DNA of 64,000 nucleotides. It comes from Sphingopyxis sp. LC363. Its GTDB lineage: Bacteria > Pseudomonadota > Alphaproteobacteria > Sphingomonadales > Sphingomonadaceae. Positions 25,976 through 56,244 of the stretch are shown here, one piece after another. The stretch is from NCBI RefSeq assembly GCF_000756385.1, contig NZ_JNFC01000067.1:62001-126000 (forward strand). Direction: 5' to 3'. The notes under the pieces were generated by a model that was given only the letters and a program-made list of their open reading frames with translations, searched no databases and had not been told where the DNA came from. Position numbers and translations under genes: made by a program. Position 1 is the stretch's first letter. Every line of letters starts with the position of its first letter.

Positions 25976-25999
25976 CATTGTGCAACCCATTGCACAATG
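25976..25999. promoter_or_regulatory. Perfect inverted repeat, candidate operator of divergent catabolic operons
   Basis: Arms CATTGTGCAA (25976-25985) and TTGCACAATG (25990-25999) with four bases between. It stands in the 247-bp gap between the NahC-like gene (-) and the benzoate-dioxygenase-like gene (+). The same arms occur in the divergent gap at 45078-45157 and in weaker form elsewhere. The regulator is unknown; MarR, TetR, IclR and GntR genes in the window are candidates. Confidence 0.8.
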
Positions 26000-26115
26000 A
26001 GCCACGCATGCTATGTTGGGTCATTCGGGATCGGAAGAGTCCAAAGAGTTGAGCCGAGAATCGTTGATCCAAATAGTTGACCTACGAATCTCGGTGGCCG
26101 GAAATGGAGGAGAGG

Positions 26116-27528
26116 ATGTTGCAACCTGACGGAAACGGCGCAGCCGTGGCAGAGCTTGAATCACTGCGTTCGCGTATCGATGCATGGCTCGTAAAAGACG
26201 AGGGAAGCGGCCGCTTTCAGATCGACCGGGAGGCCTTTACCGACGCGGACGTGTTCGCTCTCGAGCTGAAATATATCTTCGAGCGCAACTGGGTCTTCAT
26301 TGCGCACGAGAGCCAGGTCGCAAAGCCGAACGACTTTCTCACGACTTTTATCGGCCGCCAGCCCGTCATCCTGACCCGCGACCGGGCCGGGGAATTGCAT
26401 TGTCTGATCAATGCCTGCGCGCACCGCGGCGCGCGCGTTTGCCGCGAGAAGAGCGGAAACCGCCGCAACTTCACCTGCCCCTTCCACGGTTGGACCTATA
26501 ATCCCGCGGGCCAACTCCTCGACGTGACAGATGAGGCTGGGGGTGGCTACGCGCCGGGCTTCAAGCGGGAAGACTATGGTCTAGAACATGTTGCGCGCAT
26601 CGAGATTTACCGGGGCTTCATTTTCGCCAGTCTCAACCCCGAGGTCGTTCCTCTTGAGGACTATCTCGCGGGCGCGAAGACATTCATCGATCTCATGGTT
26701 GATCAGTCGGTCGAAGAGAAGCTCGAAGTTCTTCCAGGCGCTACGCGCTACCGCTATCGAGGGAACTGGAAGCTGCAGGTCGAAAATGGCCTCGACGGCT
26801 ATCATATCGGCACGGTGCACGCGAATTACTTCATGACGGTCGCACGCCGGGTCGACGGGACATCGAAGAACGATACCAGGGCGTTCGATTTCGGTCGCTG
26901 GGCTCAGCTCGAGGGCGGCTCTTTCTCCTTCGACAACGGCCATTGCGTGCTCTGGAATGACTATGCAAACTATCAGGACCGGCCGAATTACGAAATCCTG
27001 GACTGGTTGAAGCGCGAGCGCGGCGAAGAGCGCGCTACCTGGATGAACGGCCGGATACGCAATCTGGAGCTGTTCCCTAACGTCTTCCTCATGGACCAGA
27101 CGAGCACCCAGATCCGTATCATCCGGCCCATCTCGGTGGATGAGACCGAGGTGACAACCTACTGCATAGCTCCGGTGGGTGAGAGTGACGACGCCCGCGC
27201 CTTGCGCATCCGCCAGTATGAAGATTTCTTCAATGCAAGCGGCATGGCTACGCCGGACGACCTGACCGAGTTCAACAATTGCCAGGTCGGTTTCGGTGGC
27301 GGGGCTGGCCGGATGAACGACATGTCGCGGGGATCGACACGGTGGGTGCAAGGCGTCAGCAGCCACGGCGAAGCCCTGGGCGTCGACGCCATCCTTAGCG
27401 GCACGGCGGTGGCCGACGAGGGGCTTTACGTCGCGATCCACGACGAATGGATATTGCGCATGCGCGGAGCCATTGCGAGCGAAGAGGCCGAGCGCGCGTT
27501 ACCCCCGAAGCCGGAGATGGCGAAATGA
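26116..27528 (+). CDS. Rieske oxygenase alpha subunit, benzoate/toluate 1,2-dioxygenase-like (pair 4)
   Basis: 470 residues from the ATG at 26116, which has a GGAGGAGAGG site; in-frame TTG and ATG codons upstream are less likely. Rieske ligands Cys101, His103, Cys121 and His124 (CAHRG, CPFHGW). The iron motif is NGLDGYHIGTVHANY, close to BenA/XylX. That family converts benzoates to 1,2-cis-diol 1-carboxylates. The beta gene follows with a 4-base overlap and a PdxA-like dehydrogenase follows that, instead of the usual reductase BenC and dehydrogenase BenD. A BenD-like SDR is present at 40454-41239. Confidence 0.92.
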   Translation: MLQPDGNGAAVAELESLRSRIDAWLVKDEGSGRFQIDREAFTDADVFALELKYIFERNWVFIAHESQVAKPNDFLTTFIGRQPVILTRDRAGELHCLINACAHRGARVCREKSGNRRNFTCPFHGWTYNPAGQLLDVTDEAGGGYAPGFKREDYGLEHVARIEIYRGFIFASLNPEVVPLEDYLAGAKTFIDLMVDQSVEEKLEVLPGATRYRYRGNWKLQVENGLDGYHIGTVHANYFMTVARRVDGTSKNDTRAFDFGRWAQLEGGSFSFDNGHCVLWNDYANYQDRPNYEILDWLKRERGEERATWMNGRIRNLELFPNVFLMDQTSTQIRIIRPISVDETEVTTYCIAPVGESDDARALRIRQYEDFFNASGMATPDDLTEFNNCQVGFGGGAGRMNDMSRGSTRWVQGVSSHGEALGVDAILSGTAVADEGLYVAIHDEWILRMRGAIASEEAERALPPKPEMAK

Positions 27529-28019
27529 GCAGCGAAGTTGCGCAATGGACCGCGATCCAGCGATTTCTCGGGCGCGAAGCGGCCGCTCTCGATGCCAAGG
27601 ATTGGGATAGCTGGATCGATCTATATCATCCCGATGCCGAATATTGGGTCCCCGCGTGGGATGACAGCGGCCGATTGACCGAGGACCCAAGGCGCGAGAT
27701 TTCGCTGATCTATTATCCGACCCGGGCAGGGCTCGAGGACCGCGTCTATCGCATTCGGACGGGCCGGTCGTCGGCCAGTTCGCCGGCCCCGCGCACTTCC
27801 CATATCTTTTGCCTGCTCGCGGTCGACCATGAGGACGACGTCATTCGGGCGCGGACGAATTGGTCGGTGACCTCGGTCTTGGAGGATCGGCCGACGGTCT
27901 ACAGTGGGTCGGCCATTTACGATCTCGAACCGATGGGCGACGCCTTTGTGATAAAACGCAAATATACCGTCGTCATCAACGACCTCGCGCAGACGATGCT
28001 CGATGTCTACAGCATTTGA
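27525..28019 (+). CDS. Rieske oxygenase beta subunit, benzoate dioxygenase-like (pair 4)
   Basis: 164 residues from the ATG overlapping the alpha stop (ATGA). The segment YWVPAWDDSGRLTEDP followed by ISLIYY and VYRIRTGRS is very like BenB/XylY. Structural partner of the upstream alpha subunit. Its 3' end overlaps the PdxA-like gene by 17 bases. Confidence 0.93.
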   Translation: MSSEVAQWTAIQRFLGREAAALDAKDWDSWIDLYHPDAEYWVPAWDDSGRLTEDPRREISLIYYPTRAGLEDRVYRIRTGRSSASSPAPRTSHIFCLLAVDHEDDVIRARTNWSVTSVLEDRPTVYSGSAIYDLEPMGDAFVIKRKYTVVINDLAQTMLDVYSI

Positions 28020-29025
28020 GGTCGGCGTAGCGTCGCAGCAGGCCGGATTCCGGCCCTGCATCGGTACCATGGTCGGCGAGCCGGCAGGCATCGGACCCGA
28101 GGTTACCGTTCGCGCCTGGGCGTCAGGCCGCGTGCATGAGGTGTCGGTTCCCCTATTAGTGGGGTCGGCGGCCTCGGTCGAACGAGCGCTTGACCTGACT
28201 AAAGTGTCGGCCCGCCTGCGTGTCATGCGTTCGCTCGAGCCGCTCAGCGACGACCCGGCAGTCATCGATATCCTGGATACAGGTGCGCTGGACGACCGCG
28301 CGCTCCCCTTCGCGAAAGATACGCTCGAATCGGGCATTGCGACCGCCAAGTGGCTAGCCGAACTCGATGCGCTCGCGCGCGACGGGGTCTTCGCCGGCAC
28401 AGTGATGGGTCCGATCAGCACCGGATCGCTTAAACTGGCGGGAAAGCTGGATATGGTGATCAGCCCGACGCCGGGCGAGAGTTATCTGCTCCTCCTCACC
28501 GGACCGCTCCGTGTCGCCCACCTCACCGATCATATGTCGATTCGGGCGGTCTGCGACCTCATCACGCCCGAGTTGATCGATACCGCCCTACAGCAAATCG
28601 ACGCGGCGCTTCGAAGCTGGGGCGTCGCCAACCCCAGGATCGTGGTCGCGGGTCTCAATCCTCATGCCATCGGCGATGAGGAAGATCGTGCCATCGGTCC
28701 TGGAGTCGCGCGCGCGCGCGCGCGCGGCATCAATGTCGATGGACCATCCGCGCCCGATACCGTCTTTCGCCAATGTATCGAAGGCCGATACGATCTCGTG
28801 CTAGCGATGTTTCACGACCAAGGCCACATAGCCGTCAAGACATGGGGATTCTCGGGAAACTGCGTGATCATGATGGGGCCACCCTATCTCCATATGTCGG
28901 TCGCACACGGCACGGCATATGACATTGTGGGAACGGGCAAAGCCGATCCATCGATGATGCTGAGTGCCATGCGGACTTGTGGGGTGCTGACCGCCGGAAA
29001 GGGCTTTTCCGAGGTGGATCGCTGA
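28003..29025 (+). CDS. PdxA-family dehydrogenase, likely cis-diol-carboxylate dehydrogenase (TphB-like)
   Basis: 340 residues. PdxA fold with GEPAGIGPEV, and metal His in LTDHMS, GLNPH and MFHDQG. The phosphate-gripping PGHTE of true PdxA reads PGESY, so the substrate should lack the phosphate. As for the paralogue at 14802-15812, the gene follows a benzoate-class alpha/beta pair with overlap, pointing to oxidative decarboxylation of a cis-diol carboxylate, as TphB does in terephthalate breakdown. A (CG)10 run lies inside the coding sequence (28707-28726). Confidence 0.82.
   Translation: MSTAFEVGVASQQAGFRPCIGTMVGEPAGIGPEVTVRAWASGRVHEVSVPLLVGSAASVERALDLTKVSARLRVMRSLEPLSDDPAVIDILDTGALDDRALPFAKDTLESGIATAKWLAELDALARDGVFAGTVMGPISTGSLKLAGKLDMVISPTPGESYLLLLTGPLRVAHLTDHMSIRAVCDLITPELIDTALQQIDAALRSWGVANPRIVVAGLNPHAIGDEEDRAIGPGVARARARGINVDGPSAPDTVFRQCIEGRYDLVLAMFHDQGHIAVKTWGFSGNCVIMMGPPYLHMSVAHGTAYDIVGTGKADPSMMLSAMRTCGVLTAGKGFSEVDR
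28707..28726. repeat. (CG)10 dinucleotide run inside the PdxA-like gene
   Basis: Ten CG units encode the VARARARG stretch of the protein. Such alternating purine-pyrimidine DNA can adopt Z-form and can slip in replication; a change of one unit would frameshift the gene. Confidence 0.9.
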
Positions 29026-29097
29026 CGCGCCGGCCCAACTCCGGCGTGAAGCACGGCCATTCGCGCGCTGTGCTCAAGTCGTCCACAAGGATATGAG

Positions 29098-29703
29098 ATG
29101 CTCCTTTACTATGCGCCTGGCCTTTGCTCGCTGGCACCGCACATCGCGCTGCGCCGGATAGGGGCAGAGTTCGATATTGAAAAAGTCGACATGCCCACGC
29201 GCAGAACCGAGCATGGCGCCGACTTCCGGTCGATAAAGCCTTCGGGAAAAATCCCTGCTCTCCTTCTGGATTCGGGCGAGCTTCTCACAGAGACGATAGC
29301 GATCCTTCTCTATGTTGCCGACCTGGCACCGCGCGCGGGGCTCGCCCCGCCGGCCGGAACAATCGCTCGCTACACGCTGACGGACAGCCTGAGCTTCATC
29401 GCCTCCGAGCTGCACAAGAGCTTCGTGCCGCTCTTCTCCAAAACCGCGGGGCCGGAGATCCGCGCTGAGGCAAAGCGGGACGTCATGCACCATCTCCAAG
29501 CGCTCGACCTGGAATTGACCGACAAGAATTATTGCTTCGGGGACGCCTTCACCGTGGCCGACGCCTATCTCTATTGCATCCTCGGGTGGCCCTCTCGAGT
29601 GGAGATCGGTCTCGCGGGCTTCCCCGCTTTGACGCGCTACCGCGCCCGGATGGAAGAGGAGCCCGGTGTCCTCGAAGCCGTGCGAGCCGAGAGCCTGAAG
29701 TGA
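29098..29703 (+). CDS. Glutathione S-transferase, beta class (BphK-like)
   Basis: 201 residues: N-terminal thioredoxin fold LYYAPGLCSLAPHIALR with the beta-class Cys10, SGKIPALLLDSGELLTE for glutathione binding, and an all-helical C-terminal domain. BphK-type GSTs occur in biphenyl and PAH clusters; roles reported include dehalogenation of chlorinated intermediates and stress protection. Here it lies between the PdxA-like gene and the meta-cleavage genes. Specific substrate uncertain. RBS AAGGA precedes the ATG. Confidence 0.9.
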   Translation: MLLYYAPGLCSLAPHIALRRIGAEFDIEKVDMPTRRTEHGADFRSIKPSGKIPALLLDSGELLTETIAILLYVADLAPRAGLAPPAGTIARYTLTDSLSFIASELHKSFVPLFSKTAGPEIRAEAKRDVMHHLQALDLELTDKNYCFGDAFTVADAYLYCILGWPSRVEIGLAGFPALTRYRARMEEEPGVLEAVRAESLK

Positions 29704-29750
29704 CCGGATCAGAGGCGCCGGTTTCATTTACCGGTTGCAAACGCGTTTCC

Positions 29751-29770
29751 CATGGTGCAAAACATTGTCC
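29751..29770. promoter_or_regulatory. Motif-like element upstream of the meta-cleavage genes
   Basis: CATGGTGCAA differs at one position from the arm CATTGTGCAA of the 25976 operator and is followed by AACATTGTCC. It stands about 105 bases before the ring-fission hydrolase gene, in a 170-bp gap that may hold an internal promoter. Confidence 0.4.
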
Positions 29771-29873
29771 CAAGAGGGCTGCGACATGATGGCCCGTGGA
29801 ACGGAGATTGAGTGATGCTTGAAGCCGTTTGGGGGCAGGTCGCCCGACATGATGATTACATGGTTGCTGGCCA

Positions 29874-30722: not shown

Positions 30723-30741
30723 ATTTCCCGGGAGAGCGGTG

Positions 30742-31665: not shown

Positions 31666-31674
31666 CTTCCTGCG

Positions 31675-32100: not shown

Positions 32101-33612
32101 ATGGTACAGGTTCAACAGCTTGCGGTCGAACCGGAAGAGAGAAACCGACCTGTCGCTGCGGATATCTTGAACTTTATCGACGGACGGTTCGTAAAGGGCG
32201 GCTCGGGGGCGACGTTCCCCAACATCGACCCCGCCACCGGTCGGGAGACGGGGCGCGTTCATGAGGCGACCCGTGAGGATGTGGATCGCGCTGTAGCGGC
32301 GGCCAAGCGTGCGCTCACAGGACCTTGGGGCAAAATGACAACAGCCGAGCGCATTCGGCTCATCGCTGCTGTTGCGGATGAGATCGAACGGCGCTCGGAA
32401 GACTTTCTCGATGCAGAAGTGGCCGATACGGGCAAGCCGAGAGCGGTCGCGGCGCACATCGATGTTCCGCGCGGCGCGTCGAACTTCCGGATGTTCGCCG
32501 ACATCGTCACGACCCTCCCGACAGAATCGTTCGGTACCCCGACGCCTGACGGGAGCGGTGCGATCAATTACGCTGTGCGTAAACCGAAGGGTGTCATCGC
32601 GGTCGTCTGCCCGTGGAATTTCCCGCTCTTGCTGATGACCTGGAAAGTCGGCCCGGCGCTGGCCTGCGGGAACACCGTGATCGTCAAGCCGTCCGAAGAG
32701 ACGCCGCGGACGGCAGCCCTTCTCGGCGAAGTGATGGACGCGGTCGGAATGCCCACGGGGGTCTACAACGTCGTCCACGGCTTCGGCCCCGGCGCAGCAG
32801 GCGAGTTCCTCACCGCCCATCCGGACGTCGATGCCATCACCTTCACAGGCGAAACCGGCACCGGGCAGGCCATAATGAAGCAGGCTGCCGTCGGCGTTCG
32901 CGACATCAGCTTCGAACTCGGCGGCAAAAATCCAGCGATCGTCTTCGCCGATGCCGATCTTGAGAAAGCAGCCGAAGGCATTTCGCGCGCCGCCTTTCTG
33001 AATAGCGGGCAAGTGTGCCTGGGGACCGAGCGTGTCTATGTCGAGCAATCCGTCTTCGAACCTTTCGTAGCCAAGCTTGCCGCTGCCGCTCGCGCACTGA
33101 AACCCGGGAACAAGGGTGATCCGCATTACCTCGGGCCGATGATCAGCGAAGAACATCGGCAGAAAGTGCTCGGATATTATGAGCGGGCGATCGCCGAAGG
33201 GGCAATCGCCGTTACGGGCGGCGGGGTACCCAACGTCGATGCCGCGGCGGCGGGCGGGTTCTGGGTCGAACCCACAATCTGGACCGGCCTCGCTCATGAT
33301 TCGACCGTCATGCGGGAGGAGATTTTCGGTCCTTGCTGCGGGATCATTCCCTTCGACACCGAAGACGACGCGATAAGTTGGGCGAACGACACGGATTATG
33401 GCCTGTGCGCTACCGTCTGGACAGAAAATCTCTCTCGAGCTCATCGCGTCGCGGCGGCAATGTCCGTCGGCGTGTGCTGGGTGAACTGCTGGTTCCTGCG
33501 CGACCTGCGCACGGCATTCGGCGGTTCGGGGCAATCGGGAATAGGCCGCGAGGGCGGAGCGCACAGCCTCGAATTCTACACCGAGCTCGAAAACATCTGC
33601 GTGAAGATATGA
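32101..33612 (+). CDS. xylG: 2-hydroxymuconic semialdehyde dehydrogenase (XylG/DmpC)
   Basis: 503 residues, with an N-terminal lead of about 20 residues more than usual. Aldehyde dehydrogenase fold: PWNFPLLLMTWK, ELGGKNP (general base Glu) and catalytic Cys in NSGQVCLGTERVYV. The order C23O, HMSDH and DmpE-type hydratase, and the length, support oxidation of 2-hydroxymuconate semialdehyde to 4-oxalocrotonate (NAD-dependent). It overlaps the next gene by four bases (ATGA). Confidence 0.92.
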   Translation: MVQVQQLAVEPEERNRPVAADILNFIDGRFVKGGSGATFPNIDPATGRETGRVHEATREDVDRAVAAAKRALTGPWGKMTTAERIRLIAAVADEIERRSEDFLDAEVADTGKPRAVAAHIDVPRGASNFRMFADIVTTLPTESFGTPTPDGSGAINYAVRKPKGVIAVVCPWNFPLLLMTWKVGPALACGNTVIVKPSEETPRTAALLGEVMDAVGMPTGVYNVVHGFGPGAAGEFLTAHPDVDAITFTGETGTGQAIMKQAAVGVRDISFELGGKNPAIVFADADLEKAAEGISRAAFLNSGQVCLGTERVYVEQSVFEPFVAKLAAAARALKPGNKGDPHYLGPMISEEHRQKVLGYYERAIAEGAIAVTGGGVPNVDAAAAGGFWVEPTIWTGLAHDSTVMREEIFGPCCGIIPFDTEDDAISWANDTDYGLCATVWTENLSRAHRVAAAMSVGVCWVNCWFLRDLRTAFGGSGQSGIGREGGAHSLEFYTELENICVKI

Positions 33613-34418: not shown

Positions 34419-34445
34419 GGCGATCAACCGGAAAGGGATAAAGAG

Positions 34446-37394: not shown

Positions 37395-37399
37395 TCGCT

Positions 37400-37678: not shown

Positions 37679-37692
37679 GGTGGAGAAGCGAC

Positions 37693-40442: not shown

Positions 40443-40453
40443 GTCCCCGAACT

Positions 40454-41239: not shown

Positions 41240-41254
41240 CGTGAGCTCTCCATT

Positions 41255-41305
41255 ATTGCGCAACTAAAATTGATAAATATCAACTGGATAGAATTGTTAC
41301 GCAAT
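41255..41305. promoter_or_regulatory. Nested inverted repeats in a divergent promoter gap
   Basis: ATTGCGCAAC (41255-41264) and GTTACGCAAT (41296-41305) are inverted with one mismatch, and between them TTGAT and ATCAA form a 5-bp repeat with a 4-base spacer (41270-41283). The outer arms resemble the ATTGTGCAAC arm of the 25976 operator. This lies just upstream of the BenD-like gene and about 105 bases before the NahE-like gene. Confidence 0.5.
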
Positions 41306-41348
41306 GGTTGATTCAGGAATTACATGTCGCAGCTTGCAAACACAAGGA

Positions 41349-41360
41349 GTAATGCATTAC
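41349..41360. promoter_or_regulatory. Perfect 12-bp palindrome GTAATGCATTAC
   Basis: A fully symmetric 12-mer about 50 bases upstream of the NahE-like gene. Its place, downstream of the nested repeats and close to a probable start of transcription, suggests a second repressor site; no regulator is assigned. Confidence 0.45.
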
Positions 41361-41409
41361 ACTATGAACAACGAAAGGGCCGTGATTCTGCAGGTCCAAA
41401 AGGAGAGGG

Positions 41410-44095: not shown

Positions 44096-44163
44096 TCACA
44101 CCTGGGAGCGATGGTGAGAGCCAGCGCCCTTGGATATGTACGTCATCGGGGTGACAACGGCCC

Positions 44164-45030
44164 TCAGGCCGTCGTCCAGTCGCGTGCGCCAAAATGGCGT
44201 TCGAGCATCGGGCGCATGATGTCCCATCGCTCAAGCTGGCTCCAGTGTCCCGACCTATCGAGAACATAGAGTTCGGCATGCTGGAGATGCTCAAGCAGAT
44301 AGAGGCTCGTATCGAGAGGGACGATCCGGTCCTGCCTGCCGTGAAAAATCAGCACGTCGTGCGGAAGCTTGCCCAAGATCGACGGCGGCATTGCAAGCGT
44401 TTCGATCCCGACCTTCATCGAATCGATCATCTTCGACGCGATGGACATGACAGCGGGATCGGTCGCAATTTGATAGCGCGACGATACGATCTCTTCCATT
44501 CCTTCGAACTTGTCAGCGTCATAGGCGAAGCTGTGCATCAGCTGGCGATATCGCGCTGGGCGCGGATCGGAATAAAAGGAGAGCAGCCGAACCAACTCCG
44601 GCGTCCGCGGCGCCGGGGCACCTATCGACCCCATGAGAATGACCTTATCGAATCGTTCGGGCGTTTCGCTCAGAAGCTGCAGTGTCAGCGCGCCGCCCAT
44701 CGAATTTCCGACGATATGGGCGCTGTCGATCTCAAGCGCGTCCATCAGTCCGAGGCATTGTTCGACGCGGACACCGATCCACGCCATGACATTGTCCGGG
44801 AACGGATCCGGTATGGTGGACTGGCCAAATCCGATCAGATCGGGTGCGATCACGAAGAAATTTTCGGCGAGATCGGGCATTAGGTGGCGCCAGTTTGATG
44901 CGGCGTGCGCACCCGGCCCGGCGCCATGCAGAAGTAATATGGCAGGCTTCTTGGGATCGCCGGCGATCATCGTGTGCGACGTAAGCCCGCGTCCTTCGAT
45001 TTTCTCTTCCCGGATGACATCCGAACCCAT
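44164..45030 (-). CDS. Meta-cleavage-product hydrolase (BphD/CarC type)
   Basis: 288 residues from the ATG at 45030 (GGGAGAG upstream); a longer frame begins in the control region. HGAGPGAHAASNWRHLMP is the oxyanion region, GNSMGGAL the nucleophile elbow, Asp in HGRQDRIVP, His in RSGHWSQLE. It hydrolyses vinylogous 1,5-diketones from ring fission. Together with the divergently encoded hydratase and aldolase (45199-46771) it would make a second lower meta pathway. It lies beside two copies of the shared regulatory motif. Confidence 0.88.
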   Translation of the reverse strand: MGSDVIREEKIEGRGLTSHTMIAGDPKKPAILLLHGAGPGAHAASNWRHLMPDLAENFFVIAPDLIGFGQSTIPDPFPDNVMAWIGVRVEQCLGLMDALEIDSAHIVGNSMGGALTLQLLSETPERFDKVILMGSIGAPAPRTPELVRLLSFYSDPRPARYRQLMHSFAYDADKFEGMEEIVSSRYQIATDPAVMSIASKMIDSMKVGIETLAMPPSILGKLPHDVLIFHGRQDRIVPLDTSLYLLEHLQHAELYVLDRSGHWSQLERWDIMRPMLERHFGARDWTTA

Positions 45031-45077
45031 GAAATCTCTCCCTTCCGTCTTATCGATGGCATTCCATCCGACCTGGA

Positions 45078-45157
45078 CATTGCACAATGGCTATCGTGTT
45101 GTCCATTGTAAACTCTAGCGACCTGCCGACTGGACTCTCATATCTCATTGTGCAATG
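45078..45157. promoter_or_regulatory. Two inverted copies of the CATTGTGCAATG motif in a divergent gap
   Basis: CATTGCACAATG (45078-45089) and its exact reverse complement CATTGTGCAATG (45146-45157) are 56 bases apart between the hydrolase (-) and hydratase (+) genes. Each 12-mer is itself nearly symmetric around ATTG-nn-CAAT. They match the arms of the 25976-25999 repeat. A looping or paired-site arrangement that controls both genes is likely. Confidence 0.8.
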
Positions 45158-45198
45158 CATTTGCCAGATAAGCAATTGTGGGACGGGGAGTAGCCGAG

Positions 45199-45999
45199 AT
45201 GGACGACGAGACTGTTGCATCGCTCGCGCGTGAACTGGATGTCGCCGAGGCGAGCCAAACACCCGTCCGGCAGCTGTCGCTTCGCTTCCCTCAGATGACG
45301 ATAGAAGATGGATATCGCATCGCCCGCGCGTGGGTTGAGCTCAAGAAGGCGGCGGGACGTCGGTCCATTGGCCGCAAGATTGGTCTGACATCGCGTGCGA
45401 TGCAGGCGTCTGCTGGTATCACCGAGCCCGACTATGGCACGTTGCTCGATGACATGGCGTTCGAGGAGGGGAGCGAAATTCCCATCGATCGCTTCATCAA
45501 TCCGAAGGTCGAAGTCGAATTGGCCTTCATTCTCTCCCGGCCGCTGGGTGGTCCCGATGTGACGACACGGGCTGTTCTCGCTGCCACTGAATATGTAGTG
45601 CCCGCCGTGGAGATCATCGACAGCCGCGTTCAGCCGATCGACGCGGAGACCGGCAGCGCCCGGAAAATCCAGGATACGATTGCCGACAACGCGGCGAATG
45701 CCGGGATCGTCCTCGGCGGCCGGCCCATCCGGCCGGACGCCATCGACCTGCGATGGGCCGGCGCCATATTATCTCGCAATGCCGTCATCGAGGAAACAGG
45801 AATTGCGGCTGGCGTGCTAAACCATCCAGCGCGAGGGGTCGCGTGGTTGGCAAATCGCTTGTCGCAGTGGGGAGAAGAGTTGCAGGCGGGCGAAATCCTG
45901 CTGGGCGGTTCTTTTACCCGCCCGGTCCCTGTGTCGCGCGGCGACGTGATATCTGCGGATTATGGCAGGCTCGGCTCGATCGCGATGCGGTTTGTCTGA
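45199..45999 (+). CDS. Hydratase of the 2-oxopent-4-enoate / 2-oxohept-4-ene-1,7-dioate family (HpaH-like)
   Basis: 266 residues from the ATG at 45199 (GGGGAG upstream; a GTG at 45178 is also in frame). Family motifs [45 protein letters not shown] and [12 protein letters not shown]. HpaH hydrates 2-oxohept-4-ene-1,7-dioate; XylJ hydrates the shorter analogue. The aldolase next door is of the HpaI type, which favours the HpaH reading. Start site lies right after the pair of regulatory motifs. Confidence 0.85.
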
Positions 46000-46000
46000 C

Positions 46001-46771: not shown

Positions 46772-46797
46772 CCGCGATCCGCGCGCCGGTTTTGGCC

Positions 46798-46824
46798 TTG
46801 CACAATAAGCAACGGATTGTATGC
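46798..46824. promoter_or_regulatory. TTGCACAAT-type element before the UbiX gene
   Basis: TTGCACAAT (46798-46806) and ATTGTATGC (46816-46824) form an imperfect inverted pair matching the shared motif, within 110 bases of the flavin prenyltransferase start. It may allow separate control of the decarboxylase/methylhydroxylase block. Confidence 0.5.
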
Positions 46825-46904
46825 TGTGTCCAAATAGGAAATCGGGAGCGGGCTATGCTAGTGCCGAATCGACCGGATACAGGCGGCCTCCGCCGGCGGG
46901 GGCG

Positions 46905-48100: not shown

Positions 48101-49650
48101 GGCCGCCGCTGCCCGAGGGAATTGCGGCGGCCGACTTTTCACGGGCCCTCGATGAACTCGCAGGCGTCGTCGGCAAAACCTGGGTTTTCGTCGACGAGCT
48201 TCCGCTGTCGACTTACCGCGACGCGTATTCGCCGCTTGCCGATGGCACTCTGCTTCCTTCTGCCGCCGTCGCTCCGGAAAGCGTCGAACAGGTGCAGCGG
48301 ATCCTTGCCATCGCCAACAGCTTCCGATTGCCGATCTGGACCATCGGGACTGGACGGAACTTCGCATATGGCGGGCCGGCACCCCGCAAATCCGGATATC
48401 TTGTCCTCGATCTGAAACGGATGAACCGGATCATCGAAGTCAACGAAAAATATGGATATGCGCTGGTCGAGCCGGGCGTTTCCTACATGCAGCTTTATCG
48501 CCACCTGCAGCGGATCGGCAGCAAATTGTGGATCGATCCGGCAGCGCCCGCCTGGGGCGGCGTCATGGGGAACGCGCTCGAGCATGGCGCCGGCTACACG
48601 CCCTATGGCGATCACTTCATTATGCAATGCGGGATGGAAGTTGTGCTTGCCGATGGCCAGGTCGTTCGCACGGGCCAGGGAGGCATCTCTAACAGCAAGC
48701 ATTGGCAGATCAGCAAACATGGGCTCGGACCGCAGTTCGATGGCATGTTCACCCAGTCGAATTTCGGCGTCGTCACCAAACTCGGCATCTGGCTGATGCC
48801 GGAGCCGCCCGGTTACAAGCCGTTCATGATCACCTTTCCACGCGAAGAGGATCTCGAGCAGATTTTCGAGATCACGCGCCCGCTCAAGGTGAATCAGGTG
48901 ATCCCTAACGCAGCGGTCGCGGTCGACCTATTGTGGGAGGCCTCGGCGAAGACCACGCGGCGACATTATTATGACGGCAAGGGGCCGCTCCCGCCGTCGA
49001 TCCGGACGAAGATCGCCGCGGACCTCAATCTCGGGATGTGGAATTATTACGGCGCCCTCTACGGACCACCGCCCATGATCGAGAATAATTGGAAATTGAT
49101 CGAGGAGGCATTCAGCAACATTCCGGGCGCCAAGTTCCACTTCGCGCGCGAGAATGATCCTGCGTGGGATTATCGCGTTAAGCTCATGCGCGGCGAACCC
49201 AATATGACCGAGTTCAGCATCATGAACTGGATCGGCGGAGGGGGACACGTCAACTTTTCCCCGATTTCCGCGCCCGACGGGGCGGAAGCCTTGGCTCAAT
49301 ATAATCTGATCAAGAAACGCTGCCACGAATTCGGCTTCGACTACATCGGGGAGTTTCTGGTCGGCTGGCGGGACATGCATCACATTTTGATGATCATGTA
49401 CAATCGGGCCGATGAAACGATGCGCAAGAGCGCCCACGATCTCTTCAGTCTCCTGGTGGATGAGGCCGCGGCGGCGGGGTTCGGCGAATATCGTACTCAT
49501 CTCGCCTTCATGGACCAGATTGCTGGAACCTATCGTTACAACGACGGGGCGCTTTGGGATCTCCATCACCGCCTGAAGGACGCTCTCGATCCCAACGGCA
49601 TTCTTTCGCCCGGAAAGCAGGGCATATGGCCGAAGTCGGCGCGTCCCTGA
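48097..49650 (+). CDS. 4-cresol dehydrogenase / p-cresol methylhydroxylase flavoprotein-like oxidoreductase
   Basis: 517 residues from the GTG overlapping the previous stop. VAO/PCMH family: FAD pyrophosphate loop WTIGTGRNFAYGGPAP, second FAD segment GGVMGNALEHGAGYTPYGDH, and a C-terminal substrate domain ending DPNGILSPGKQGIW. Relatives (PchF, vanillyl-alcohol oxidase, eugenol hydroxylase) oxidise the benzylic carbon of 4-alkylphenols via a quinone methide, passing electrons to a cytochrome c. A cytochrome c gene (54355) and an aldehyde dehydrogenase (49681) complete such a set. PCMH enzymes are periplasmic; no signal is evident here. Confidence 0.88.
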   Translation: MRPPLPEGIAAADFSRALDELAGVVGKTWVFVDELPLSTYRDAYSPLADGTLLPSAAVAPESVEQVQRILAIANSFRLPIWTIGTGRNFAYGGPAPRKSGYLVLDLKRMNRIIEVNEKYGYALVEPGVSYMQLYRHLQRIGSKLWIDPAAPAWGGVMGNALEHGAGYTPYGDHFIMQCGMEVVLADGQVVRTGQGGISNSKHWQISKHGLGPQFDGMFTQSNFGVVTKLGIWLMPEPPGYKPFMITFPREEDLEQIFEITRPLKVNQVIPNAAVAVDLLWEASAKTTRRHYYDGKGPLPPSIRTKIAADLNLGMWNYYGALYGPPPMIENNWKLIEEAFSNIPGAKFHFARENDPAWDYRVKLMRGEPNMTEFSIMNWIGGGGHVNFSPISAPDGAEALAQYNLIKKRCHEFGFDYIGEFLVGWRDMHHILMIMYNRADETMRKSAHDLFSLLVDEAAAAGFGEYRTHLAFMDQIAGTYRYNDGALWDLHHRLKDALDPNGILSPGKQGIWPKSARP

Positions 49651-49680
49651 TGCCACGCGACCCACGCTCCCAGGAGATTC

Positions 49681-51144
49681 ATGATGCGTAAGGACGAAGT
49701 GAGGGGGCTTGACCACTGGATCGGCGGGTCACCGGTTGCCCCTGGCGACGGCGCTTATTTCGAAAGCCTGAACCCGATTGACGACAGTCTCTATTCCCGG
49801 GCGGCTGCCGGGACTCCGGCCGACGTCGATCGAGCAGTTGAGGCGGCCGACACGGCCTATCGCCGGAACCGCGACCTTTCCGCAGCCGCGCGCGAGGGAT
49901 GGATGATAAAGGCTTCGGCTCTCATGGAGCGTGACGCATCGCAATTTGCCGACACGCTCGTTGATGAAATCGGCTCGCCGATCGCAAAGGCCGGTTTCGA
50001 GACCCGGTTCGCCACGAGCTTCTTGCGCGCGGCCGCAGGCGTTCCCCGGCGCATTCGCGGCGAGACTATTCCATCCGATGCGCCCGGCCGCGTCAGCATG
50101 AGTTTTCGCGAACCGGTCGGAGTCGTTGCCGGCATTACGCCGTTCAACGTCCCGCTGATCAAGGGGATCAAGCAGTCGGCCATGGCGCTCGCGACGGGCA
50201 ATGCCTTCGTCCTGCTTCCGTCGGAAGCGGCACCGCGCGTGGCCGATCAACTCGCGCGCCTCTGGGAGGAAGCAGGCGTGCCCGAAGGCCTGTTCAACAT
50301 TGTATATGGGGACGGCGCCAAAATCGGCGATGCGCTTACTGGCCATCCCAAGGTTCGCGCGATCACCTTCACGGGCTCGTCCCGGGTCGGGCGGCATATC
50401 GCGCGCATCGCAGCTGAAGGCTTCAAGAAATATACCCTCGAACTCGGCGGGAAGAGTCCTCTCGTCGTCTGCGCCGACGCCGACATCGAAAAGGCCGTGG
50501 CGGCCGCGATCTTCAGCATCTTCATGTATCAGGGCCAGGTGTGCATGGGGGCGTCGCGTATCTATGTCGAACGTCCGATCTTCGACCGGTTCTCCAAGGC
50601 TTTCGCTGCTGCAGCTGCGAAACTCTCATCCGGCGATCTGCGCGATCCCGCAACGATGCTGGGTCCTATCATTTCCGGGCGTCAGCGCGCGCGCGTGCGG
50701 CAGCATATCGATGACGCCCGCGGCAAGGGAGCCGAAATACTCGCCGGGGGCGAATGGACGGGCCATGTGTGCCATGCGACCATCCTCTCCGGTGTCCAGC
50801 CCGGGATGGAGGTAGCGGCCCAGGAAACCTTCGGGCCGGTCACGTCGCTCTATCCGTTCGATGACCTCGATGAAGCCCTCCGGCTTGCCAACGACACCGA
50901 ATATGGCCTGAGCGCCGCGATCTTCACGCGCGACATCGACAAGGCGCTTCGGTTCGCTCGCGAAATCGAGTCCGGGATGGTCCATGTCAACGCGCCCACG
51001 TTGCACGACGAGCCTCACGTGCCGTTCGGCGGTTCCAAGGCTTCCGGATTTGGCCGCGAGGGCACCGAGGCCGATCTTGAAATCATGACCGAGTGGAAAT
51101 GGGTGAGCATCCAGACCGACGCGGCCGTTGGGGGAGCACACTGA
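49681..51144 (+). CDS. Aromatic aldehyde dehydrogenase (vanillin/4-hydroxybenzaldehyde type)
   Basis: 487 residues, ATG with AGGAGA upstream. Fold elements: GITPFNVPLIKGIKQ, ELGGKSPLV, catalytic Cys in YQGQVCMGASRIYV. It resembles benzaldehyde and vanillin dehydrogenases. By position between the methylhydroxylase-like flavoprotein and the UbiD decarboxylase it should turn the benzylic aldehyde into the aryl carboxylate that UbiD removes. The UbiD start shares its stop codon (TGATG). Confidence 0.88.
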   Translation: MMRKDEVRGLDHWIGGSPVAPGDGAYFESLNPIDDSLYSRAAAGTPADVDRAVEAADTAYRRNRDLSAAAREGWMIKASALMERDASQFADTLVDEIGSPIAKAGFETRFATSFLRAAAGVPRRIRGETIPSDAPGRVSMSFREPVGVVAGITPFNVPLIKGIKQSAMALATGNAFVLLPSEAAPRVADQLARLWEEAGVPEGLFNIVYGDGAKIGDALTGHPKVRAITFTGSSRVGRHIARIAAEGFKKYTLELGGKSPLVVCADADIEKAVAAAIFSIFMYQGQVCMGASRIYVERPIFDRFSKAFAAAAAKLSSGDLRDPATMLGPIISGRQRARVRQHIDDARGKGAEILAGGEWTGHVCHATILSGVQPGMEVAAQETFGPVTSLYPFDDLDEALRLANDTEYGLSAAIFTRDIDKALRFAREIESGMVHVNAPTLHDEPHVPFGGSKASGFGREGTEADLEIMTEWKWVSIQTDAAVGGAH

Positions 51145-52622
51145 TGTCTCAAGGAAAGTCATCCATTCGCGCCAACCTCGCCGATCGCGCAAGAGGCGTC
51201 GGATCGCTGCGCGATTTTCTGGAGCTCCTCGAAGAATATGGGCAGGCCATTACCTGGACGGACCGGATCATGCCCGAGCCCGACCTGCGCAACATTGCCG
51301 TGGCCGCCTCGCGCGATGTCAACCATGCTCCTGCGATCCTGTTCGACAATATAGCGGGCTACCCCGGGAAACGCACGGTTGTCGGGGTGCACGGCTCTTG
51401 GGATAATATCGCGCTGCTCCTGGGTCAGCCAAAAGGCACCACAATCCGGGATATGTTCTTCGACATAGCCGGGCGCTGGGGCGATGCCTCTGCCCAGATC
51501 AGCCGCGTTTCCGAGGGGCAGGCGCCTGTCCATGAGTGCCGGCACGAGGAGAATATCAATCTCTACGACCTGCTGCCCGTGTATCGCATCAACGAGTTTG
51601 ACGGGGGTTTCTATTTGGCCAAGGCGTCGGTGGCTTCGCGCGATCCGTTGGATCCGGAAAATTTCGGCAAGCAGAATGTCGGCATCTACAGGCTTCAGAT
51701 CCAGGGTCCCGATCGCTTCAGCCTGATGACGATCCCGTCGCATGACATGGGACGCCAGATCCTCGCAGCGGAACGCGAAGGCCTGCCGCTCAAGATCGCC
51801 GTCATGCTCGGCAACCATCCCGGCGTCGCGTTGTTCGCAGCAACACCAATCGGCTACGACGAGTCCGAATATGCTTATGCCTCGGCGATGATGGGAGCGC
51901 CGATCCGGCTGACGAATTCCGGCAACGGTATCGACATCCTCGCGGATAGCGAGATCGTCATCGAAGCCGAGCTCCAGCTTGGTGAGCGCGTCTTCGAAGG
52001 GCCGTTCGGTGAATTCCCAGGATCCTACAGCGGCGTGCGACGCGCCCCTGTCTTCAAGGTGACCGCCGTCTCGCACCGAAAGAACCCTATATTCGAGAAT
52101 ATCTACATCGGTCGTGGCTGGACGGAGCACGACACGTTGATCGGTCTTCATACGTCGGCGCCCATCTATGCACAGTTGCGCCAGACCTTTCCCGAAGTCA
52201 CCGCGGTGAATGCGCTGTACCAGCACGGACTGACAGCGATCATCGCGGTCAAGAACCGGATGGCGGGCTTCGCAAAATCCGTGGCGCTCCGCGCGCTTGG
52301 TACGCCCCATGGCCTCATGTATCTGAAAAATCTGATCATGGTCGATGGCGATATCGATCCCTTCGATCTCAACCAGGTCATGTGGGCCCTGTCGACCCGG
52401 ACGCGCGCGGAGGACATCATCGTCCTGCCGAACATGGCGATGGTCCCGATCGACCCCGCTGCCGTGACGCCGGGGAAGGGGCACCATCTGATTATCGACG
52501 CAACAAGCTATCTCCCGCCCGATCCGGTGGGCGAGGCACATCTGGTCACCCCGCCCACCGGCCAGACTATCGATGACCTCGGCAAACGGATCCAGGCGAT
52601 GCAACGAGGCGAGACGCTATGA
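51144..52622 (+). CDS. UbiD-family decarboxylase (VdcC-like, prFMN-dependent)
   Basis: 492 residues from the ATG overlapping the dehydrogenase stop. UbiD marks: EENINLYDLLPVYRINEFDGG, GKQNVGIYRLQIQ with the active Arg, IEAELQLGERVFEGPFGEFPGSY with the Glu pair of the Glu-Arg-Glu triad. Using prenylated FMN from UbiX it would decarboxylate a 4-hydroxybenzoate-type acid or run the reverse carboxylation. The small D-subunit gene next door (52619) identifies the hydroxyarylic acid decarboxylase subgroup. Exact acid unknown. Confidence 0.92.
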   Translation: MSQGKSSIRANLADRARGVGSLRDFLELLEEYGQAITWTDRIMPEPDLRNIAVAASRDVNHAPAILFDNIAGYPGKRTVVGVHGSWDNIALLLGQPKGTTIRDMFFDIAGRWGDASAQISRVSEGQAPVHECRHEENINLYDLLPVYRINEFDGGFYLAKASVASRDPLDPENFGKQNVGIYRLQIQGPDRFSLMTIPSHDMGRQILAAEREGLPLKIAVMLGNHPGVALFAATPIGYDESEYAYASAMMGAPIRLTNSGNGIDILADSEIVIEAELQLGERVFEGPFGEFPGSYSGVRRAPVFKVTAVSHRKNPIFENIYIGRGWTEHDTLIGLHTSAPIYAQLRQTFPEVTAVNALYQHGLTAIIAVKNRMAGFAKSVALRALGTPHGLMYLKNLIMVDGDIDPFDLNQVMWALSTRTRAEDIIVLPNMAMVPIDPAAVTPGKGHHLIIDATSYLPPDPVGEAHLVTPPTGQTIDDLGKRIQAMQRGETL

Positions 52623-52858
52623 CTGCACCCCATTGCCCGCGATGTGGCTCCGACGCTTCGATCCCTGATTTCCGCGGCGTCGATGGCGAGAAAACGATTT
52701 GGACAATCCATCGCTGCACGGCCTGCTGTTTCTCTTGGCGCGACAGCGAGCCGGCGAGTGCGATCGACCCGCGTGTGCGCGCCGAGGAGTTCGCGATCGA
52801 TGTTTCGGAGCCGGATCTTTTTCCGATCGTCCTGCAACCTTCGACCATGCGGAAATAG
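52619..52858 (+). CDS. Nonoxidative hydroxyarylic acid decarboxylase subunit D (VdcD-like)
   Basis: 79 residues with two Cys pairs, CPRCGSD and CTACCFSWRD, the latter followed by the SEP element known from VdcD/BsdD small subunits. The length is right for that family. It starts four bases inside the UbiD stop (ATGA). In other bacteria the D protein supports activity of the UbiD-type C subunit. This makes the UbiX-UbiD-D set complete even though other genes sit between B and C. Confidence 0.87.
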   Translation: MTAPHCPRCGSDASIPDFRGVDGEKTIWTIHRCTACCFSWRDSEPASAIDPRVRAEEFAIDVSEPDLFPIVLQPSTMRK

Positions 52859-52870
52859 GGGGTGATCAAG

Positions 52871-54331
52871 ATGGACGCAAATCGCCAAGCCGCCGCGCTC
52901 GACGCGCTAGAAGCACTGGTCGGTGCCGATGGGGTAACGCGCGATCCGGCGGCGCTCGCACCCTTCCATTCCGGAGTCGCCCTGCCCCTGGGTATCATCG
53001 CGCCGCGCGACACCGAGCAACTTGCCAAGGTCCTCGCGGTGGCGAGCGAGGCCGGAGCGGCGCTTCAACCTGTGTGCCGCGCGGTCGCAGGTCAGGAGGT
53101 GGCGGCACGCGACAAGATCATATTGCTCGATCTTGGCCGCATGAATGAGATTCTCGAGATCAATGAGAACTTGGCTTACTGCCTCGTCGAGCCAGGCGTC
53201 ACCTTTCGGCAACTCTCCGAACAGATAGGCGAGCGGGGGCTCAAGCTCTGGGTCGATTGCCCGGGTGAGCCCGACGAATCGGTGGCGAGCGCCTTTCTGA
53301 AGCGGCGCGTGGGCTATACCCCATATGCCGATCATTATCTTATGCAATGCGGGCTTGAGTTGATGCTGGCCGACGGCCGCAGTGTCCGGACAGGGATGGG
53401 TGCTATGCCCAAGAGTACCTGCTGGCAGCTCTTCAAATTTGGTTACGGGCCCTGGATCGACGGGCTCTTCACACAATCCGATCTTGGCGTCGTGACCAAG
53501 CTCGGCCTCTGGCTCATGCCCCAGCCCCCGGCAGCGCAATCCTTTGCTGTCACGGTGCCGGACGAAGACGATCTTGGCAAACTTCTCGATGTACTGGGCC
53601 CGCTCAAGACCAATATGGTCGTCCCCAATGGCGTGGCGGTGGCAAATGCGCTGCACGAAGCAGCGCGTTCGGGCAAGGTACGCCGCGACTTCGGCGGCAC
53701 CGGCCCAATGTCCGCCGGCGAGGTTCGAAAAGCCGGGGAGTCGATCGGGCTTGGCTACTGGACTCTTTACGGCTCGCTTTACGGGCTCCCCGACAATGTT
53801 CGCATCGCTTGGTCGATGGTCCAGGACGCGTTCGCATCGATCAAAGGCTCGCGGGTGCTGGCCGCTCCCGCAGCCGGGATGGAAGGACTGTGGGCGTGGC
53901 GAAAAGGCATGATGCTTGGTTCGGTCGGTAATGCACTTGGCCGCCCTTCGGCCTGGGCCGGAGGATCCTCTCTCGACATCGGCCCCATCAGCCCGGTTGA
54001 TGGCAAGGAAGGGCTTCGCCTTTATGACTTGTCGCGCGATATTTCCGGCCGGCACGGTTTCGATTTTGTCGGAGAAACGAATGCCGTCTGGCGCTCTGCC
54101 CAGCATCGGCAGTATTTGTGCTTCGATGGCAGTCCCGCGGGCAGTAAACGGGCGAGAGACTGCGCTATCGAGCTGATCGATGCGCAGGCAGGTGCCGGAT
54201 TTGGACAGACGCACGTCGAGCCGGCGCTCGCCGCCTCTGCTAGGGCGACCTATGAAAGCGGCGCGATAACTCAACTGCACGCGCGCGTGAAACGCGCGCT
54301 CGATCCCGCGAACCTCTTTCTGTCGGCCTGA
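52871..54331 (+). CDS. Degenerate p-cresol-methylhydroxylase-like flavoprotein homologue
   Basis: 486 residues from the ATG at 52871 (GGGGG ahead); a GTG at 52862 is possible. The body is clearly homologous to 48097-49650 (LDLGRMNEILEINEN, VGYTPYADHYLMQCGLELMLADG, TQSDLGVVTKLGLWLMP). The two FAD-contact segments are eroded: the GTGRNFAYGG loop reads VCRAVAGQEV, and GGVMGNALEHGAGYTPYG reads ESVASAFLKRRVGYTPYA. It may not bind FAD and could be a structural partner of the intact flavoprotein, or a relic with a new role. Next gene is the cytochrome c. Confidence 0.8.
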   Translation: MDANRQAAALDALEALVGADGVTRDPAALAPFHSGVALPLGIIAPRDTEQLAKVLAVASEAGAALQPVCRAVAGQEVAARDKIILLDLGRMNEILEINENLAYCLVEPGVTFRQLSEQIGERGLKLWVDCPGEPDESVASAFLKRRVGYTPYADHYLMQCGLELMLADGRSVRTGMGAMPKSTCWQLFKFGYGPWIDGLFTQSDLGVVTKLGLWLMPQPPAAQSFAVTVPDEDDLGKLLDVLGPLKTNMVVPNGVAVANALHEAARSGKVRRDFGGTGPMSAGEVRKAGESIGLGYWTLYGSLYGLPDNVRIAWSMVQDAFASIKGSRVLAAPAAGMEGLWAWRKGMMLGSVGNALGRPSAWAGGSSLDIGPISPVDGKEGLRLYDLSRDISGRHGFDFVGETNAVWRSAQHRQYLCFDGSPAGSKRARDCAIELIDAQAGAGFGQTHVEPALAASARATYESGAITQLHARVKRALDPANLFLSA

Positions 54332-54354
54332 CCTCAAACAAGGGAATCGAAAGC

Positions 54355-55195: not shown

Positions 55196-55267
55196 GTCCT
55201 GCCCCCGAAATCCCCTCGCATGCCAGCGCCCGGGAGGCTCCCGTTTATGGCGATCGCACCAAGCGGG

Positions 55268-56080
55268 TCAGGAATCCCCACGCATCTCCTCCGGCTGCCA
55301 GCCCATTGCGTTGCTGGCTTTGAGAGCGGCGGCCTGGACTTTGTCGATATTGCTCTGGCAAAAGAATTTTTCGTCGGTCATCCGGCCAAGTACGCCAATC
55401 ACCGCGATCAGCTTTTCCTGCATGTCGAATACCGGGACTGAAATGGCAGCGAGCCCCGGTACCACTTGGCCGTCCACCTTGGCGTAGCCTTGCCTCCGGA
55501 TCTCCGTCAGCATAGCTTGCAGCTCGATTTCATCGATGGACGTCCGCGCAGCGCGCTCACGTTCAAGCAGCCGCTTATAGGCAGGGAGTGGCTGGAAAGC
55601 CATGAAAACTAGCCCTGCAGACGAATGCTGAATGGGAAGGACCGATCCGACGTGCAAAGACGTCGCAATTGGAACGCCGCCATCGAGCCAACGGATGATC
55701 GTCGGCCCATAGTCACCCCATATCGAGAGCAGACCAGTGGTCTCGAGATCATCCGCAAGCTGCCGCAGATAGGCGGTGGTGATGCGAATAACGTCGAGCC
55801 TCGACAAGGCCGAGAGTCCGATCTTGAGGGCGGTTGGACCGAGAGAATAGCGACCGTCCGCAGGCTCCTGCTGGACCAGCCCAGTATTAATGTAGGCCTG
55901 GAGATATCGGTGCGCCTGGCTGCGCGACATCTCGGCTCCCGCGGCGATATCGCGAAGGGGTGCGCAGCCGCCGGGACAAGATATCAGCGCTTCGAGCACG
56001 CGGACCCCAGTCTCTACCGACTGGATACTCTTGCGAGGCTTTTGCGCAACATCGCGCGGCGATTTGGAAGAGGCGGACAT
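55268..56080 (-). CDS. IclR-family transcriptional regulator
   Basis: 270 residues from the ATG at 56080; an upstream in-frame TTG at 56137 would add 19. N-terminal winged helix (SVETGVRVLEALISCPGGCAPLRDIAAGAEMSRSQAHRYLQAYINTGLVQ) and C-terminal ligand domain (GLAAISVPVFDMQEKLIAVIGVLG). IclR regulators often sense aromatic acids and control catabolic operons. Its upstream gap carries TTGTGCAA (56237-56244), a core of the motif found before several operons here, which makes it a candidate regulator of the whole set. Not tested. Confidence 0.9.
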   Translation of the reverse strand: MSASSKSPRDVAQKPRKSIQSVETGVRVLEALISCPGGCAPLRDIAAGAEMSRSQAHRYLQAYINTGLVQQEPADGRYSLGPTALKIGLSALSRLDVIRITTAYLRQLADDLETTGLLSIWGDYGPTIIRWLDGGVPIATSLHVGSVLPIQHSSAGLVFMAFQPLPAYKRLLERERAARTSIDEIELQAMLTEIRRQGYAKVDGQVVPGLAAISVPVFDMQEKLIAVIGVLGRMTDEKFFCQSNIDKVQAAALKASNAMGWQPEEMRGDS

Positions 56081-56236
56081 ATCGGAGTGATCGTCTTCAA
56101 GCTCTGTCACTCTCACGCTTTTTGCCTGACGTTCCAAACTTCTTCCATTCTCTTATTTTGTCCCTTTTGCAGGGATACGAGGGTTCTAGGAAGCAACAAC
56201 AGATACAATTCATATCTCAAGATGCAAAGTCGTTTC

Positions 56237-56244
56237 TTGTGCAA
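56237..56244. promoter_or_regulatory. TTGTGCAA core in the IclR upstream gap
   Basis: The 8-mer occurs in the 276-bp gap between IclR (-) and the EamA gene, with CTATGCAATGG 20 bases beyond. If bound by IclR it would mean autoregulation. An 8-mer can arise by chance, so the weight is low. I saw nothing else in the rest of this gap. Confidence 0.35.

Follow-up and report, generated by a model that had tools for sequence, protein, structure and literature searches.

In this study, a stretch of 64,000 nt from Sphingopyxis sp. LC363 (contig NZ_JNFC01000067.1, positions 62,001 to 126,000), here called the window and used as the coordinate system throughout, was analyzed for a repeated inverted motif that stands ahead of genes for the breakdown of aromatic compounds. 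The motif is very probably the operator of an IclR-family regulator encoded in the same window (55268–56137) and resembling PheR; a probability of approximately 0.83 was assigned to this reading, which covers both the binder and the sites. We infer that IclR binds here, and likewise its direction of control, its inducing compound and the location of the promoters. The window belongs to a 150.6-kb contig (C67) in a draft genome (G000) of 4.21 Mb and 73 contigs.

Conservation of the dyad between bphC and xylX

The main site is the inverted repeat at 25976–25999, in the gap shared by a bphC/nahC-like gene and a xylX/benA-like gene (Table 1). The original prediction had described it as a 24-base inverted repeat, and it is indeed exact, with perfect 10-bp arms. 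Inside it, the conserved core GTGCAA-N4-TTGCAC was located at 25980–25995. Syntenic clusters around bphC homologues were found in sphingomonad genomes and on plasmids pLA1, pF2, pNL1 and KK22 p1, and the core was exact in the gap upstream of bphC shared with xylX in all 11 clusters compared; because several of these are near-identical (promoter groups pF2/pNL1/G217/G224, pLA1/KK22/G385 and G280/G294), the 11 promoters amount to about 4–5 independent lineages. The core was exact upstream of bphC in locus L020 too, and in the bphC promoters of Croceicoccus PQ-2 and Novosphingobium ES2-1 (2/2). Among nine aligned promoters it was the longest invariant block, with largely diverged flanks.

In 593.6 kb of cluster DNA, 13 exact cores were counted, whereas 30 controls with permuted half-sites gave 0.03 on average and never more than 1; counts with 1 to 3 mismatches were at background level. 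The significance of the core rests on its conservation across genomes, as rarity alone proves nothing. In four more distantly related records (R. jostii RHA1, S. macrogoltabida, Sphingobium JS3065 and US6-1 pLA3), no bphC/nahC-like gene had the core upstream of it (0/4), and the weaker relatives L061–L081 likewise lacked a good match, the best having 7 mismatches in 20. A distant blastn comparison of the 25976 gap with plasmids gave no match.

On the bphC side, TA stands at a distance of exactly 17 bases from TTGCAC in 12/12 loci; on the xylX side this spacing is 17 in 9 of 11 loci and 16 in the window and genome G240. Such spacing would give the geometry of −35 and −10 elements on both sides of the gap. 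TTGCAC is a poor −35 element, the consensus being TTGACA.

Two more elements resembling half-sites lie beside the dyad on the bphC side, GATGCAACG at 25940–25949 and GGGCAA at 25960–25969. Their counterparts in G240 and L020 are spaced approximately 17–20 bp, and these elements could be tandem binding units.

Distribution of the motif and the individual sites

The half-unit put forward in the original prediction, the 9-mer ATTGTGCAA, is not the conserved element; the core described above is. With at most one mismatch, the 9-mer matched 17 places in the window against 9.5 expected, a number reached by 3 of 100 shuffles, which is a modest enrichment and weak evidence alone. Eight of these 17 loose matches fall within genes (10021, 23412, 23503, 27538, 38863, 46445, 48619 and 52699, the last in a small open reading frame (ORF) at 52619–52858); they had been left out of the predicted site list, as had the site at 57414–57456. 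On these grounds, namely the modest enrichment and the genic matches, the 9-mer was rejected as the motif unit.

The 12-mer CATTGTGCAATG has four exact copies in the 4.21-Mb genome, three of them in the window, which makes up 1.5% of the genome; simple arithmetic with equal base use gives approximately 0.5 copies per genome by chance. When up to two mismatches were allowed, 138 matches were found genome-wide, compared with 25 for the reversed pattern. The fourth exact copy (contig C25:46949, L001:9950) may, as judged by eye, precede a polyhydroxyalkanoate-depolymerase-like gene.

GTGCAA was the most over-represented hexamer in the intergenic gaps of five clusters when a Markov model served as the reference (36 copies against 12.1 expected; first of 2041 hexamers). 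Its density in gaps was 6.5 times that in genes, second only to the ribosome-binding-like CTCTCC; the window alone has nine gap copies and 14 genic copies (8 and 15 when full ORF bounds are used). Gap bounds for the hexamer and matrix tests were set by hand (ubiX from 46900, EamA end 57300, hydrolase 45033, hpaH 45199), since relatives align only from later residues or because the bounds were judged by eye.

A 24-bp matrix was built from seven other clusters and the PheR footprint, with the window, G240 and L020 excluded. Its eight best matches in the window were at 25976, 29751, 3621, 41343, 45146, 57433, 57414 and 25940, all in the hand-drawn gaps, which cover 7.5% of the window (6/8 under full ORF bounds). 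The top score, 30.05, was reached by none of 100 random windows generated by first-order Markov resampling, and none of them contained six matches of at least 14.09. On pNL1 (NC_009426.1), the matrix analysis predicts sites at 32524–32547 (bphC/xylX), 53777–53800 (hydrolase/hpaH) and 42766–42789 (ubiX); the first of these was among the training sequences, and the other two were not. Equal frequency in coding DNA, which the original prediction had named as the outcome that would speak against the motif, was not found inside the cluster, as seen from the gap density of GTGCAA and from the matrix trained on other clusters.

The features of the window are listed in Table 1.

Table 1. Candidate binding sites of the motif and the genes beside them in the window
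Feature	Position	Strand	Sequence or evidence
Main candidate operator, between bphC-like extradiol dioxygenase and xylX/benA-like dioxygenase genes	25976..25999	.	CATTGTGCAA-CCCA-TTGCACAATG
Candidate half-operator, single 12-mer toward alpha/beta hydrolase	45078..45089	-	CATTGCACAATG
Candidate half-operator before hpaH	45146..45165	+	GTGCAATGCATTTGCC; GTGCAA-YG-NN-TT kept in 8/8 aligned hpaH promoters
Three-box candidate operator before UbiX/decarboxylase block	46796..46828	.	TTGCACAAT-AAGCAACGG-ATTGTAT; boxes alternate in direction (by eye)
Candidate half-operator before meta-pathway operon (xylF 29874, xylE 30739)	29751..29774	+	CATGGTGCAAAACATTGTCC; matrix rank 2, alignment
Candidate variant operator before nahE (41410)	41343..41366	.	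GTAA-TGCA-TTAC-AC; conserved in G240; matrix rank 4; ATTACAC kept in 4/4
Candidate operator, EamA/coenzyme A-transferase gap	57414..57456	-	PheR-footprint 12 bp TGCAACGCGATG exact at 57421–57432; palindrome TGCAC-TAT-GTGCA at 57429–57441
Possible operator ahead of aromatic genes at 4127–7633	3621..3644	+	TTTTGTGCAACGTGTTGTCT; matrix rank 3
Possible autoregulatory half-site upstream of iclR, weak	56235..56246	-	9-mer scan
bphC/nahC-like extradiol dioxygenase, first gene of leftward operon	24969..25883	-	TIGR03213, 371.2 bits (cutoff 366.45)
xylX/benA-like ring-hydroxylating dioxygenase alpha subunit, first gene of rightward operon	26077..27528	+	TIGR03229, 589.4 bits (below cutoff 780.95); Rieske and Ring_hydroxyl_A; synteny
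HsaD/BphD-like alpha/beta hydrolase	44164..45033	-	HsaD, 154.1 bits (cutoff 400); Abhydrolase
HpaH-like 2-oxo-hept-4-ene-1,7-dioate hydratase	45199..45999	+	TIGR02312, 436.1 bits (cutoff 351.5)
IclR-family regulator, PheR-like, candidate binder	55268..56137	-	PF09339 HTH_IclR, 43.4 bits (cutoff 22); PF01614 IclR_C, 75.1 (cutoff 24)

The proposal of one regulon was largely right: the held-out matrix and the gap density of GTGCAA agree with it for bphC-xylX, the meta pathway, nahE, the HpaH/HpaI branch and the UbiX/decarboxylase block, but some of its coordinates have to be replaced. In the hydrolase–hpaH gap, the 12-mers at 45078–45089 and 45146–45157 are exact inverses, as had been noted. The statement that all sites lie in non-coding gaps holds with sensible start codons, but 45078 falls within the longest hydrolase ORF (44164–45087) and lies outside it only if the ATG near 45033 is the start, as judged by eye. 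The hpaH match of L089 in the cluster counts and in the xylF/hpaH survey is a 40% paralogue; the true hpaH promoter of G240 was used in the promoter alignment.

Among the weaker sites predicted, those at 46798 and 29751 stood. The former is an exact 9-mer match inside the island 46796–46828, which has 91% identity to G240 over 33 bp; the layout is similar in pF2, G217 and pNL1 and different in G385 and KK22. Before xylF, GTGCAA was present at −101 to −119 in 12/12 loci including the window, with TTGCAA or TTGCCA further upstream in eight aligned promoters. The site at 3621 ranked third with the matrix, but its gap gave no alignment with G240. For nahE, the two positions predicted were rejected, since 41255 lies at the edge of an ORF (40454–41263) and is not conserved in G240, and 41296 has no match at one mismatch or fewer; the conserved element is 41343–41366. 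The site upstream of iclR (56237 in the prediction, 56236 in the alignment) is weak: it aligns with L020, which has CTGCAA for GTGCAA, and is not conserved in G240.

G240 retains GATGCACTATGTGCAA in the EamA gap, a sequence similar to the PheR site of G217 and G224; the rows for G280 and G294 failed to align in this set. As judged by eye, a third half-site of alternating direction may be present at both 46796–46828 and 57414–57441.

Several observations concern the neighbouring genes. The block at 46821–54331 encodes a UbiX-like flavoprotein, flavin adenine dinucleotide (FAD) oxidases, an aldehyde dehydrogenase and a UbiD-like decarboxylase and includes the small ORF at 52619–52858; on pNL1, pF2 and KK22, comparable blocks carry the annotation hydroxyarylic acid decarboxylase subunits C and D. 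Two PdxA-like genes (14802–15812 and 28003–29025) adjoin ring-hydroxylating dioxygenase genes and are possibly diol dehydrogenases. The longer ORF at 29074–29727 (minus strand) had no Pfam match; the true gene is probably the ORF at 29098–29703 (plus strand), which matches GstA of the syntenic clusters.

Candidate regulator and competing explanations

Of 396 genomes, nine encode an IclR with 45% identity or more, and the same nine encode a bphC product with 77% identity or more. The IclR of the window is the best candidate binder of the motif; of the three regulators named in the original prediction it is the one favoured, and TetR and GntR are disfavoured by co-occurrence. IclR was also the sole product listed as a transcription regulator in four syntenic 50-kb stretches. 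The IclR protein is 100% identical in L014–L019 and L022, which are other Sphingopyxis or sphingomonad assemblies, and this suggests a recent horizontal spread of the cluster.

A close parallel is PheR of Sphingobium sp. SHPJ-2. According to the accessible part of its report (PMC13273656), PheR is an IclR repressor footprinted on the phnA1 operator and released by phenanthrene; its gene lies just downstream of the operon, residues R63, R73 and R78 are essential for DNA binding, the minimal motif is GCAACG, and deletion of pheR raises the expression of benzoate- and xylene-degradation genes and TonB genes. The 44-bp footprint given there contains ATGCAACGCGATGCAC, which differs from the dyad by two mismatches; the operator has TGCAA-N4-ATGCAC, and 12 bp of it recur exactly in the EamA gap of the window. 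Like PheR, the window protein belongs to the IclR family, is borne by the cluster and has arginines at the same spacing: R62, R72 and R77 align with R63, R73 and R78 of the 283-aa relatives in G217, G224, pF2 and pNL1. The operator published in the accessible text is the phnA1 promoter, and neither the bphC/xylX palindrome nor the hpaH, nahE, ubiX and xylF sites were met there.

A 34-bp stretch of the footprint is identical in G217, G224 and G263 (3 of 396 genomes), whose IclR proteins have 46% identity to that of the window. The distance from IclR to footprint is approximately 13 kb on the same contig in G217 and G224, and the two are on different contigs in G263. The IclR of G217 is presumed to be PheR itself or its orthologue. 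Another relative, SARO_RS17250 (Saro_3889), is the pNL1 IclR of Novosphingobium aromaticivorans; it has 283 aa with R63, R73 and R78, shows 48% identity to the window protein and lies in the same syntenic cluster. DNA affinity purification sequencing (DAP-seq) of SARO_RS17250 gave 10 peaks, for which the text provides no positions or motif (PMC12352068).

Several points weigh against IclR as the binder and repressor. The counts across clusters are non-independent, some clusters being near-identical, and many IclR proteins are activators. With at most one mismatch, the 16-bp core has a single genomic match (25980), compared with two for the reversed control, and is rare without being over-represented genome-wide; the 13th exact dyad, GTGCAACGCATTGCAC at L095:19835 of G294, lies away from bphC. 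The lone half-site at 45078 is kept only in G240 and was not seen in six other aligned clusters. Matrix ranks 2–6 (19.47 to 14.09) were reached by 1, 3, 5, 11 and 13 of 100 random windows and are singly unremarkable, as are those from rank 7 (9.80) onward, a score that 70 of 100 attain. The 25976 dyad has GCAACC and GCAATG in place of GCAACG; the latter is found beside the dyad at 25946 and at 3627, 46809 and 57426, and its presence is weak evidence since there are 59 copies in the window. That IclR is the only regulator listed carries little weight, because the plasmid gene tables are incomplete and ardR is unlisted in pLA1. IclR is also not the sole regulator travelling with many of the clusters, since ArdR-like proteins are present in 6 of 7 other dyad genomes. 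According to the accessible parts of the reports, PheR protects −21 to +23 rather than the −35 region (PMC13273656), and ArdR, a sigma-54-type regulator in the Croceicoccus PQ-2 cluster, activates xylE, xylG and ahdA1e (PMC7432010).

The same sites could be bound by IclR as an activator in the style of PcaU and PobR, with the inducer turning the genes on, a proposal that differs from repression by sign only and that we consider unlikely. The nearest curated subfamily of the window protein is PcaR/PcaU/PobR (TIGR02431), at 94.8 bits under a cutoff of 284.75, which does not make it a member. Operators of PcaU, PobR and HmgR have extra direct half-sites beside their palindromes, and three-box IclR sites have alternating boxes, as described in the accessible part of PMC8222616; the window sites resemble both, with a palindrome plus extra half-sites and, as judged by eye, apparently alternating boxes. 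The group 1 consensus given there, GTNCG-N5-6-CGNAC, is not matched, as the window has GTGCA-N6-TGCAC, each arm carrying A in place of G at one position. Activation is opposed by the coincidence of the half-sites with the apparent −35 elements, which fits repression, and by the closest studied relative, PheR, being a repressor (PMC13273656, accessible part); repression appears several times likelier than activation. A further idea, that the bphC/xylX dyad is conserved only as back-to-back −35 elements without any operator, would account for the TTGCAC-N16/17-TA geometry on both sides, but TTGCAC is ill suited as a −35, promoters need no exact 12-base symmetry, half-sites recur at hpaH, xylF and ubiX, and the PheR footprint is resembled; this explanation is very improbable. 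Chance repeats or a repetitive element would agree with the modest enrichment of the 9-mer, its eight genic matches and the lack of genome-wide excess of the core, but are largely refuted by the conservation across genomes and the permuted-motif controls, and their likelihood is negligible.

TetR (17469) and GntR (58781) are both encoded in the window, and GntR/FCD proteins often bind short palindromes. Among the seven other dyad genomes, TetR has a close counterpart in one (G240, 76%), and for GntR the top match in each genome has 25–37% identity; neither is listed in the four syntenic 50-kb stretches, whose tables are incomplete. G215 was left out of the TetR, GntR and ArdR counts, its IclR and bphC being 100% identical to those of the window. 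As neither tracks the dyad-bearing genomes, both were rejected, and binding by either is hardly to be expected. Somewhat less remote, though still improbable, is binding by another regulator, such as ArdR, the quorum-sensing LuxR of PQ-2 or some other chromosomal protein. ArdR and LuxR affect polycyclic aromatic hydrocarbon (PAH) genes in PQ-2 (PMC7432010, accessible part), whose plasmid cluster with xylE, xylG and ahdA1e also carries the dyad; the ArdR-like proteins mentioned above (551–558 aa) are encoded on the bphC contig in G385, G280, G294 and G217, and one of the four exact 12-mers is found on a different contig. However, in G000 and G240, which have the dyad and IclR, the ArdR matches are only short and weak (E values of 4e-7 and 1e-6 at best), so ArdR cannot explain the dyad here and was rejected as its binder. 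The lux-box pattern CT-N12-AG was absent within 12 bp of the core at all 14 loci, and the LuxR reading was rejected; similarity to the PheR footprint also counts against a different regulator. In contrast to the genome of the window, which has no close ArdR and no lux-box pattern at the dyad, control in PQ-2 is described in the accessible text as positive, by a sigma-54-type protein and LuxR. A CRP-type site was rejected for its unsuitable spacing (by eye).

ArdR may form a second regulatory layer in many clusters. At the place of ardR in the gene order, PQ-2 has an unlisted stretch that is identical in pLA1 and is presumed from locus-tag order to be ardR (L111:11498–12085 in PQ-2 and L100:36436–37332 in pLA1); at approximately 0.9 kb with a 195-aa frame, it looks shortened compared with the 551–558-aa frames in six genomes.

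Proposed control and its meaning

In the simplest model, which matches PheR, an IclR dimer would recognize GTGCAA-N4-TTGCAC, and the weaker promoters would carry one good half-site or the three-box version. At 25976–25999 the half-sites would lie at the back-to-back −35 positions of the divergent bphC and xylX promoters, and one bound regulator would shut both operons because the dyad would cover the −35 of both. Repression would prevail when no inducer is present, and an aromatic hydrocarbon or an early intermediate would release IclR and turn on bphC, xylX with the meta pathway, nahE, the hydrolase/hpaH genes and ubiX with the decarboxylase genes. A bolder form of the proposal, to which we give even odds, is that a single PheR-type IclR governs the entire pNL1-type aromatic pathway by means of a tolerant half-site code (single half-sites, the N4 dyad and three boxes), with the bphC/xylX half-sites doubling as −35 elements. 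If so, one bound dimer would be a two-way lock at bphC/xylX, and GCAACG would represent one of the two arms of a symmetric site of 16 bp.

In the titles and abstract openings of the open-access papers listed, no account was found of the shared bphC/xylX dyad, its conservation or the extended site set, which is not proof of absence. For a previously published IclR/bphC operator of sphingomonads, the papers listed included the PheR report and the DAP-seq announcement. Searches with the motif letters gave, among the matches listed, only papers unrelated by title, and the main text of the LigR paper does not contain 'IclR'. The regulator class and the pathway were already known. The proposal can be checked from public data (GSE291618), as the pNL1 IclR has already been tested by DAP-seq (PMC12352068).

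The pNL1-type cluster is a well-known sphingomonad gene set for the breakdown of aromatic pollutants. The regulation of PAH breakdown is described as poorly defined or little known in the accessible parts of PMC13273656 and PMC7432010. In several genera, the present results link a conserved operator with a candidate regulator, and the PheR-type regulon is likely to reach beyond a single operon and to include most of the lower pathway. The same site at the same place in related bacteria looks like a shared control switch of a widespread pathway.

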